Shown in pieces: positions 20,290 to 25,159 of a DNA stretch of 64,000 nt. Numbering within the stretch: the first letter of the stretch is position 1; the number at the start of each line of letters is the position of its first letter. The DNA is from Epichloe hybrida (Eukaryota; Ascomycota; Sordariomycetes; Hypocreales; Clavicipitaceae): positions 2,604,001 to 2,668,000 of the forward strand of contig JAFEKR010000007.1 of NCBI GenBank assembly GCA_019022495.1. The letters run 5' to 3'. Position numbers and translations under genes: made by a program. The notes under the pieces are model-generated. The model was not told the DNA's origin and searched no databases. It saw nothing but the letters and a program-made list of their open reading frames with translations.

Positions 20290-21354
20290 GCTACCTCTAG
20301 GCATTCATGCCTTGATGTAGTGTCTACTTTTCTCCTCTTTTGTTGTGTGCCCTTTTCATTTGTGAAAAAAAAAAAGAATATCCCGGCGGCCAATCTGATG
20401 TAGGGCTGGCAAGACCTGGGCAACGGCGTTTTGTCATTGTTTGAGCTTCCTTCTGAATCCCAGTGCGATGCTGAGGAGTCTTGGACCCAATATCCTCTTG
20501 TGTTGGAAGGATTTTTGTCATATCGGGGAGGACAAGACGAAGATCCGCATTTGCCTGTAATGGCGTGTACAAGAGCCATTGCGCAATCTTCAGGATAGAC
20601 CGCCGCTGATCTGATGGGAGGTCAATCAGGCCTTGTTTGTAGAAATCTGGGCGTCTATAAATAAAAGCTTTGTTGTTCACATGAGGTGCTGTGCTTTTGA
20701 GCGACACTGTGCATTATCGAAATATTGGGAAATGTAACGCCGTTGCAGAAAGAGCGAACGAACCTGCATCCAGAATCATGGTGAGTTGCAACCTGGCGTG
20801 TTGTGACTTTTCTCAACCAAGGCAGGTGCCAAAACCAGCCGCCATCTCCAAGTGCGCGACGTGGTTCTGCCACCCCAGCATCGGCACCAGCATCCCCATT
20901 AGCATCAGCATCAGTGTCATGCTTCGGCTCTGACAAGCAGAATTTATATTTGCCCGGTATAAGGGCCGCCGAAGACAGCTAATGCCTTGTTGATGCCTTT
21001 GCGATATTTTTAGGGCATCAGTGTCTACAAGGTGGGCTGAGCCCGACGCGGTCTGATTAGCGAATAGTTGTACTGGGGGAAACATGGCACCAAAGCTGCT
21101 CAACAAGCGAAGCAGCTGCCCGGTGTTGGATCCGATGACCAGACAACCCGCCGTTTCACAGTCAAAGACAGATGAGAGGCGAGACGATGAACAAGCTGCG
21201 CCCAGCACGAGCAGGCCTCGGCCAGGTAGTACCAAGGTCCTTTCCGAGATACGAGATGCCATTCGCGCCATCAAACGTACTCAATATAACTGTTTGTACC
21301 AATGTCTCCATCTCCCACGGACATGATCGATTGACGTTGACTGATGAAGTAAAA
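20290..21354. other. Intergenic between the FKBP gene and PUK1
   Basis: 3' flank of the FKBP gene and promoter or 5' leader of the PUK1 ortholog. The PUK1 frame is open for 61 codons before the chosen ATG, but that part has no conserved content. No other gene recognised. Confidence 0.5.
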
Positions 21355-23878
21355 ATGCCAGGCTCCGATGGTTCGACTGTCTTTGAAGAGACTCGCAGAC
21401 GCTCATCATCGGCAAATCTGGAGAGACAGCAACTCGGTCAAGACTTGCCTGCCGGGCCGGACCCAGTTCCGCTGCGCAGACACAAAGGCATGTCACCAAA
21501 AACTCTCGTAAAAAAGCTTGGGCTCGACAACCTTGGGACGTCTTCAAATGCCACGGTAGTTCTTCGTGGCTCTTTGCTGCGAAGGCGGACGTCGCTGCAA
21601 GCCCTACCCAGTTCCACTTCATCCTTTCCGCTTAGTGATGCTGTCAGTTCGATATCTTCTCTGGGCCCGGATAAATCGTCGGGCATCGGCAATAAGTCGA
21701 CCGGAAAGACATCAGTGGATTCGCGATTGTCGGAATATACCCTCGCAAAAGTGAATCCCAAACGACGACGCAACCGGAGGCACCCATGGTCCAAGTCCAG
21801 CCCTGATGGAGGAGGAAATTTGCAAACCATCGTGGAAGGATTCCATCAGCCACAGCCGACAATTGACACTGTTGAGAAAGCAGCATCAGCCAAGATCTTC
21901 ATGGAAACGTGCTTCAATAACCTTCTCAACAAACCCAACCCGCGGATCGCTCGCTTGCAGTATCTGGAGTCGCAGCTCTACTACAGTCCACATTTAGACG
22001 CGGAAGAAAAAAATGCCATTAGGCAATCATTCTACTACCAAGAGACTTGCCATCTGAGAGAGGCTCGTGCGATCAAAACAAAGTCATTAATGTCGTTGAT
22101 GCAGGAGAACTGCTCACAAGCAGATAGCTATGAACCGCTAAAGACTCTTGGCCGTGGAAGTTTTGGAGTCGTCAAGCTGGTGCGCGAAAGGCCGGACAAA
22201 TCCCACGCATTTCCGCAGCAAGTTTTTGCAATGAAAGTCATACGAAAATCAGAAATGATTCGCAGCTGTCAAGAAGGGCATTTACGGGCCGAGAGAGACT
22301 TTCTGGTGGCGTCTGAAGGCTCCAATTGGTAACGAGACAATAATAACTGTCGATTACTATTCGTTTTCATCTAGCTAACTGTTTCGTGTACAGGGTCGTC
22401 CCCCTGGTGGCCAGCTTCCAAGATTTGACAAGTTTGTATCTGGTCATGGAGTACATGCCAGGGGGGGACTTCCTCGGTCTCTTGGTTCGAGAAAATATTC
22501 TACATGAATCAGTCGCACGTTTCTACGTTGCTGAGATGATCTTGGCTGTCGAAGAGGTCCATCGCCTCAAGTTCATCCACAGGGATATCAAGCCTGATAA
22601 CTTTCTTGTTTCAGCTTCCGGACACTTGAAGATATCAGATTTCGGCCTTGCTTTTGACGGACACTGGTGTCATGATGTATCTTACTACAAATGTCAACGA
22701 TACTTGCTTCTTGGAAAGCTTGGTGTCCGCGTGGATGGAGACGAGCAAGACCAGAAGGAAAGCGCCAACATCAGCTCACAGATCCCTTGGTTGCAGGCCA
22801 TGAAGAAGGTTTTGAGTCGACATGAGAGGAAAAGCGTGGGCGAAGAGAATGATTTACCTAGCCTGCTGGGTTAGAGGAACAGATGTGGCAACCGCGTGTC
22901 TGCAAATTCGGTTGTCGGAACAAGTCAGTACATGGCGCCAGAGGTGATAAAGGCGTGTAGAGGTTCAGAGTACGACGGAAGATGCGACTGGTAGAGCATC
23001 GGCATCATCCTGTATGAATGCCTCTACGGCCATACACCATTCTTTGCCGACGACGGTCGACAACAGACGAAGAGCAATATCTTGGTGAGTACGCCACTCT
23101 GATGAAACCTGGTCCCTGGGAAAAAAAAAGAATTCATGATATTGACCGTAATAAAAAGGACCACAAACAGATTTTCTCGTTTCCGCACCGACCTATGGTA
23201 AGCGACAAGTGCAAAGACCTGATCTTCAAATTAGTTCAGGACAAGGATATTCGGCTGTGCTCGAGACGATACCGCATGAAAGATCGCCGTCCAGCCTACG
23301 ACAGAAGATACACTGACATTTTCGAGAGACACGTGTTTCCCGACGACGCAGAAGATATCAAAGCTCATCGCTGGTTCAAGAACTTTCCATGGGATCGCAT
23401 ACATGCCATAAGTCCGCCATTCATACCACGTATCACCAGCCTCGACGATACCCATTACTTTGACGAGTCTGATCACTTCACGGAGCTCATGGCGTCGTCG
23501 GAAACCGAACCAGCGGATCCCAAACCGGAAGACATCCGCTGGGTGCTTCGGGATTGTAGACCAGTCGTACAGAACTTGGCCATTGAGTTACTCGCCACAC
23601 CTTACGACTCGGCCAGGCTGCGAAGCACGGATCGAAGAATCGACAGAACCTTTCACATAACTCCGGCAGAAAGGAAGACTTTGAAGGCCTTTCTTCGCAT
23701 GCATAAAAGAAAGGAGCAAAAGCGCCCGAGGGACATACTATTGCGAGATCTGAGCACGAAAACGACTGCCATGAACGTACGAAAGAGTACAGCGTTTATG
23801 GGCTATACCTGGCGCCGAATGCGTCCGGGGGGGTATCTTACGCCGAGGGCAGCTCCCTATGAAGTCACCCAGCTTTGA
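21355..23878 (+). CDS. PUK1: PUK1-type AGC/NDR-like protein kinase with two in-frame UAG codons, probably decoded after A-to-I mRNA editing
   Basis: Three exons: 21355-22328, 22394-23084 and 23159-23878, making a 795-codon frame interrupted only by TAG at 22872-22874 (codon 485) and 22992-22994 (codon 525). The kinase core is intact: GRGSFGVV, AMKVIRK, HRDIKPDN, SDFGLAF, MAPEV, and a conserved C-terminal extension ending KSTAFMGYTWRRMRPGGY. Both stops stand where the family has Trp: the first just before RNRCGNR, the second in CDW*SIGIILYE, normally CDWWSIG. In Fusarium graminearum the perithecium-specific kinase PUK1 has stops at the second place that are converted UAG to UGG by sexual-stage A-to-I editing (established knowledge). 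Vegetative translation would end before the APE motif. A pseudogene is the alternative, but the absence of any other damage argues against it. The start is the ATG before PGSDGSTVFEE and is moderately certain. Confidence 0.88.
22872..22874 (+). other. In-frame TAG codon 1 of PUK1, predicted UAG-to-UGG edit (A at 22873)
   Basis: The codon lies between the DFG and APE motifs and is followed by AGGAAC. The A is preceded by T and followed by G, the context favoured by fungal A-to-I editing. Family conservation, as I recall it, has Trp here. Confidence 0.7.
22981..23000 (+). other. Predicted hairpin presenting PUK1 TAG codon 2 in its loop (A at 22993)
   Basis: GATGC (22981-22985) and GCATC (22996-23000) form a perfect five-base-pair stem around a 10-nt loop holding TGGTAG. 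Fungal A-to-I editing sites are known to favour hairpin loops with U at -1. The pairing is visible in the sequence; editing is inference. Confidence 0.65.

Positions 23879-25115: not shown

Positions 25116-25159
<44 letters not shown>

Follow-up and report, generated by a model that had tools for sequence, protein, structure and literature searches.

A PUK1-type kinase gene of Epichloe carries, in addition to a stop at the known editing codon, a second in-frame TAG that is probably edited

The closest described counterparts of the gene analysed here are the edited kinase genes of Fusarium and Neurospora. PUK1 of F. graminearum (FGRRES_01058) contains two adjacent stops at its DWW motif, and UAGUAG is changed to UGGUGG in perithecia (PMC4817773). 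The edited form of this WW pair differs between species, being UAGUGG in N. crassa, UGGUAG in F. verticillioides and UAGUAG in F. graminearum; for the F. verticillioides gene, FVEG_01191, one stop is named in the available part of the same source (PMC4817773). In N. crassa the edited orthologue is STK-21 (NCU03242), whose stop stands at the first Trp of DWW and which is needed for normal ascospores (PMC7306014). The Epichloe gene described here encodes the same kind of kinase as F. graminearum PUK1 and likewise has a stop at the second Trp of DWW, where a change from UAG to UGG would restore Trp, as was originally predicted. Its first Trp of DWW is TGG, which is the stop state of FVEG_01191 and differs from both N. 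crassa and F. graminearum, and another stop, at a different Trp, is found 40 codons further upstream. In its features, the downstream stop (site 2) corresponds to the known PUK1 correction site as it occurs in F. verticillioides. The upstream one (site 1) was not found described in the literature examined, the main N. crassa paper (Liu 2017, PNAS) being outside this coverage. In the available part of PMC12194633, one of the sources retrieved for Epichloe, U. virens or Metarhizium together with RNA editing, RNA editing appears once, in the title of a reference.

Judged by homology, the window, i.e., the whole stretch of 64,000 nucleotides that was analysed, harbors a complete PUK1/STK-21 (NDR-type) kinase gene (Table 1). 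Joining its four exons yields 852 codons and a final stop, with the two TAGs as the only internal stops. The original prediction had described a spliced frame of 795 codons; the two interruptions were found exactly where it had placed them, whereas its length differs from the present model owing to a different start or first exon. At the first junction, the protein of E. festucae Fl1 has five residues more than the window gene, which probably reflects the use of another donor. The translation contains GRGSFG, AMK, HRDIKPDN, DFG (codon 469), VGTxxYMAPE and the C-terminal tail, with DWW reading DW-TAG, and thus the catalytic motifs from GRGSFG to APE and the long C-terminal extension are intact, as had been stated. 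Pfam detects the kinase domain, and the solved structure nearest by sequence is that of yeast CBK1, an NDR kinase. Among the matches listed, four Claviceps proteins match over the full length including the C-terminal extension (81–82% over 100%); further homologues, some of them named agc ndr kinase, come from Fusarium and Trichoderma. The PUK1/STK-21 assignment is based on comparison with these Claviceps, Fusarium and Trichoderma homologues and not with the F. graminearum or N. crassa sequences themselves.

The gene just upstream encodes an FKBP/NPL peptidyl-prolyl isomerase, while the downstream neighbor, on the opposite strand, belongs to the endonuclease/exonuclease/phosphatase family. As one Stachybotrys (P0023) and one Fusarium longipes (P0063) annotation fuse the FKBP isomerase gene with PUK1, the isomerase-PUK1 neighborhood is conserved; it was used as a supporting, not a defining, criterion for the assignment. 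The open frame of the phosphatase-family gene includes ten head-to-tail copies of GCTT (window positions 25118–25157).

Table 1. Coordinates and identifiers of the features discussed in the text (positions refer to the window unless a locus is given).
Feature	Position or identifier	Strand	Remarks
PUK1, whole gene	21084-23878	+	four exons, GT-AG introns
PUK1 exon 1	21084..21276	+	start codon at 21084
PUK1 exon 2	21362..22328	+	N-terminal region and beginning of kinase domain; Pfam Pkinase from residue 321
PUK1 exon 3	22394..23084	+	HRD, DFG, site 1, APE, site 2
PUK1 exon 4	23171..23878	+	kinase tail and C-terminal extension
Site 1, in-frame TAG, codon 547 (W1)	22872-22874	+	between DFG and APE; Trp in 139/169 related proteins
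Site 2, in-frame TAG, codon 587 (W2b)	22992-22994	+	second Trp of DWW; known PUK1 editing codon (PMC4817773)
Predicted stem-loop	22858..22874	+	folding; 3' arm pairs the site 1 A
Predicted hairpin	22977..23010	+	folding; site 2 A in 6-base loop (22991-22996)
HMG-box genes at homeologous mating loci	L030:6580-7206; L031:7766-8392
Split models, E. festucae	C2857_002598 / 002599		C-terminal beside N-terminal
Split models, Conoideocrella	QQS21_012773 / 012774		C-terminal beside N-terminal
Split models, O. australis	CDD82_3215 / 3214		C-terminal beside N-terminal

The presence of two TAGs at conserved Trp positions within an otherwise intact frame is confirmed. An assembly slip does not account for them, because a second copy of the gene in the same genome has both, and because site 1 is the exact end of the annotated protein of E. 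festucae Fl1. In Fl1 the same gene is annotated as two neighboring genes, which is not how it is modelled here: the N-terminal model, ending at site 1, shares 543 of 546 residues with the window gene, and the C-terminal one shares 211 of the last 212. The second copy (copy B, contig C80) is 97% identical to the window copy (copy A) over exon 3 and 95% over 3.2 kb, it keeps both TAGs, and its whole frame is intact and free of frameshifts.

Both stops are of the type TGG to TAG, and both read TAGAG with a T before the A, as already pointed out in the original prediction. Within PUK1, 11 TGG positions (with the two TAGs counted in), 16 CAA, 16 CAG and 19 CGA codons are one transition away from a stop. 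That two stops both fall on TGG has a chance probability of P = 0.021 under random transitions and of P = 0.061 under RIP-type CpA transitions, so that this test on the stop type alone is modest and shared ancestry and the known editing codon weigh more. RIP prefers changes from CpA to TpA, and on the other strand TGG to TAG is exactly such a change. Nevertheless, it is scarcely credible that recent RIP or random G-to-A mutation made meaningless stops here, as none of the 32 CAA/CAG codons, which are likewise CpA sites, was turned into a stop, as both copies share both stops, and as annotated proteins from other genera terminate at site 1.

The stops most simply predate the split of the two copies, because both copies have both of them, and the sequence beyond them was therefore under selection while the stops were in the gene. 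Copies A and B show a synonymous divergence of 0.09 and differ by 52 synonymous and 37 nonsynonymous changes overall (dN/dS 0.21). Upstream of site 1 dN/dS is 0.25, between the two stops there are two synonymous and no nonsynonymous changes, and after site 2 dN/dS is 0.18. Codons 548–852 together have 23 synonymous and 13 nonsynonymous changes (dN/dS 0.16; P = 2.6e-7), a constraint no weaker than that before site 1. It is most pronounced in the kinase tail, codons 588–720, with 15 synonymous changes against a single nonsynonymous one (dN/dS 0.016; P = 1.3e-9 vs neutrality), while in codons 721–852, with 6 synonymous and 12 nonsynonymous changes, constraint was undetectable. The frame beyond the stops is thus under purifying selection, strongly so in codons 588–720. 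The 64 codons from DFG on (467–530), just upstream of site 1, show no difference at all between the copies.

A decaying pseudogene, in which the stops are true terminations, would fit with the two internal stops themselves, with the missing constraint in codons 721–852 and with the possible asexuality of the hybrid. However, both copies carry both stops and yet neither shows a frameshift, and dN/dS of the kinase tail is as low as given above. In addition, site 1 is where proteins from other genera stop, with the downstream part retained in three of the species concerned. Decay of the gene is therefore regarded as very unlikely.

Comparison with related proteins, which the original prediction had proposed as a check, supports Trp as the family residue at both sites. 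Two protein searches (best 120 of each) gave 169 different proteins, which were sorted by text patterns, the stop state in other genera being read from annotated protein ends and not from DNA. At W1, the position of site 1, 139 of these proteins have Trp, including all classifiable Fusarium proteins listed, which thereby differ from the window gene. Five end exactly before it, 15 do neither, and ten do not contain the anchor motif and are unclassifiable. The five ending at W1, among the matches listed, are those of E. festucae Fl1, Conoideocrella luteorostrata and Ustilaginoidea virens and two records of Ophiocordyceps australis; an annotated end at this position most simply indicates a stop there, and most simply a TAG. 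Both Metarhizium proteins belong to the 15 that do neither, their models jumping from before W1 past the DWW pair, and so do several relatives from Cordyceps/Beauveria, which have a different loop. At the DWW pair, 41 proteins of the same set have WW, eight end before the first Trp and six before the second, five have already ended at W1, and ten are unclassifiable. The remaining 99 show none of these states, as a rule presumably due to models skipping part of the stretch. Among the matches listed, this stretch is skipped in all 12 Claviceps entries, ten of which have Trp at W1. These entries do not include C. paspali, for which both DWW codons are given as TGG (PMC4817773).

A search with the C-terminal part of PUK1 found it, among the matches listed, as a separate neighboring gene model in three species (Table 1). 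Where aligned, the upstream part of the Conoideocrella gene is 78% and the downstream part 80% (over 218 residues) identical to the window gene; the corresponding values for O. australis CDD82 are 56% and 59% (over 173 residues). For U. virens, no C-terminal model was among the matches listed for this search. A Pochonia chlamydosporia match to the PUK1 tail (P0178) is a separate protein of 200 residues named splicing factor U2AF large subunit, apparently a misnomer. In practical terms, many annotations among the listed relatives split PUK1, shorten it or skip its stop-bearing stretch. The public annotations ending at site 1 in E. festucae Fl1, Conoideocrella, U. virens and O. australis could also be taken at face value, the truncated protein of 546 residues then being the functional product and the full-length kinase secondary or absent. 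Such a product, however, would be devoid of APE and the DWW stretch, the constraint downstream of the stops needs a longer product, and an annotation in F. graminearum that avoided the stops turned out to be wrong (PMC4817773). There is accordingly very little to be said for a functional truncated form.

A quick tree of the part before W1 comprised 39 rows, namely 37 proteins chosen by name from the set of 169, together with copies A and B, one pick having been dropped as it did not contain the motif. With Metarhizium and Thelonectria left open, the W1 stop needs three changes on this tree, for example a gain at the base of Clavicipitaceae, a return to Trp in Claviceps and a gain in O. australis, or, alternatively, one still earlier gain and two losses. 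If the open rows are scored as having no stop, four changes are needed, compared to 6.6 for shuffled labels (2 of 500 as low). The forks placing U. virens and Conoideocrella have SH-aLRT values of 81 and 93% (no bootstrap). This favors, but does not prove, a single origin of the W1 stop within Clavicipitaceae, and site 1 looks like an additional, old second stop common to related genera.

Editing in F. graminearum affects UAG and UAA most; U is slightly enriched at −2, as is G at both −3 and +2 and A/G at +3 and +4, and 62.4% of the edited sites lie in hairpin loops (PMC4817773). The context of site 1, GGUUAGAGG, agrees with the edited sites at −1, −2, −3, +3 and +4, and that of site 2, UGGUAGAGC, at −1, −3 and +3; neither has G at +2. 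For the A of site 2, the predicted hairpin-loop probability is 0.97 to 1.00 with flanks of 15 to 60 nucleotides in both copies, despite stem differences between them, and 0.92 and 0.54 (the latter in copy B) with a flank of 10. As background, a value above 0.95 at flanks of 15, 20, 30 and 40 is reached by 40 of the window's 897 TAG triplets. The A of site 1 has a loop probability of only 0.00 to 0.06 with flanks of 15 to 60 in both copies, a value below 0.1 at all four flanks being found for 115 of the 897 TAGs; with flanks of 15 to 30 and of 60 it is predicted to sit paired in a stem, with a flank of 40 it is left unpaired but not inside a hairpin loop, and a weak fold at a flank of 10 places it in a loop (0.84 and 0.86). 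Compared to shuffled sequences, fold stability is ordinary at both sites (z of −0.5 at site 2). In both copies, a hairpin loop, which is preferred but not required, is hence predicted around site 2 and not around site 1.

This difference is the argument for the idea that only site 2 is edited and site 1 is bypassed in another way, be it by programmed readthrough of the stop, by a suppressor tRNA reading amber codons or by a splice form that escaped recognition, since the A of site 1, unlike that of site 2, is not in a predicted hairpin loop and is mostly paired in both copies. On the other hand, GGUUAGAGG has U at both −1 and −2 as well as G at −3, bases that are enriched at edited sites, even if the enriched G at +2 is absent, and 37.6% of the edited sites in F. 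graminearum are located outside hairpin loops (PMC4817773). Splicing that removes the stops, another outcome which would have spoken against the original prediction, is not suggested by the sequence either: both copies share 13 frame-keeping candidate introns around a TAG, and in one loose pattern scan none of them had the tested branch-site motif. A separate bypass of site 1 therefore appears improbable, though less so than the alternatives discussed above.

The best explanation, and in our view a likely one, is that both sites are edited in sexual tissue of fertile Epichloe. Two separate Trp codons of PUK1 would have become UAG in the lineage of the Epichloe hybrid, and the sexual-stage A-to-I complex (Tad2-Tad3 and Ame1) would change both to UGG in the mRNA. 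Full-length kinase would only be made if both were corrected, unedited transcripts giving a dead fragment of 546 residues, and it would be editing, rather than another bypass, that corrects site 1. PUK1 identity, the Trp positions, the intact frame and editing at site 2 are well supported by homology, selection and the predicted loop. For site 1, the idea of an additional edited site is likely, as the downstream frame is kept where the site 1 stop occurs, while the predicted structure argues against it; editing at site 1 is thus probable, not shown.

The editing activator could be traced in the genome as well. Ame1 is a DUF726 protein whose residues MV500-501 contact Tad3 and lie 31 and 30 residues before Ser 531 (PMC11087585). 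A DUF726 match on contig C69, identical on C106 and C142, has MV 31 and 30 residues before its catalytic Ser (hand-counted on the translation), and a diverged second copy on C1 (96% identical) keeps MV, so that an Ame1 candidate of the Sordariomycete type is present. A TAG inside the match on C69 was considered as another corrected stop and rejected, as its stretch has a GTAAGT donor and a CTGCAG acceptor and was read as an intron. A missing Ame1 homeolog, considered in view of the three identical copies, was likewise rejected given the copy on C1, with C106 and C142 taken as redundant contigs. The 4.1 kb around Ame1 are 100% identical at C69:687886, C106:251261 and C142:12427, and so are 3.7 kb at C108:231050 and C113:1842921. 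As each of these stretches is shared by long and short contigs, the assembly is in part redundant and not homeologous. The DNA methylase family includes RID, which is edited in F. graminearum; none of the six DNA methylase matches in the genome has an internal stop.

With 79.9 Mb in 156 contigs, the genome probably belongs to an Epichloe hybrid, as suggested by its size of about 80 Mb together with two diverged gene copies. One parent was probably E. festucae-like: over 546 aligned N-terminal residues, E. festucae Fl1 and copy A differ at 3 positions, Fl1 and copy B at 21. C69 and C86 each contain an HMG-box gene about 9 to 10 kb from an I_LWEQ gene, which we take to be SLA2-like, the HMG-box genes presumably being of the MAT1-2 kind. 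An alpha-box gene was not found in the genome by a search that had no positive control and was silent in control genomes too. If both parents were of one mating type, this would suggest an origin by hyphal fusion and a strain unable to mate with itself. Because of the HMG-box genes at both mating loci and the failure to find an alpha box, the hybrid may never reach the sexual stage with its editing. That the protein is confined to fruiting bodies, as had been suggested, may hence not hold for this strain. Since both of its mating loci bear the same mating-type gene, it would keep PUK1 locked by not reaching the sexual stage, and the hybrid itself probably never makes the kinase.

Taken further, and at roughly even odds, PUK1 of the Clavicipitaceae may be doubly locked by the DWW stop and an older activation-segment stop that stems from the ancestor of the family, was kept in Epichloe, Conoideocrella and Ustilaginoidea, reverted to TGG in Claviceps and occurs also in Ophiocordyceps australis. 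Two independent corrections per mRNA, one of them in a loop, the other within or close to a stem, would then be needed for any kinase to be formed, and a hybrid with one mating type would lock both copies permanently.

The founding gene of fungal A-to-I editing thus gains a second, spaced stop that can presumably be corrected, and the site 1 stop is suggested to be old, common to several genera and once reversed. This provides a natural test: do stops of this kind persist because of their usefulness, or does chance allow them to remain, and by what route might a UAG be corrected that is not in a predicted loop? A further question is the fate of genes that depend on editing in a hybrid which has possibly given up sex.
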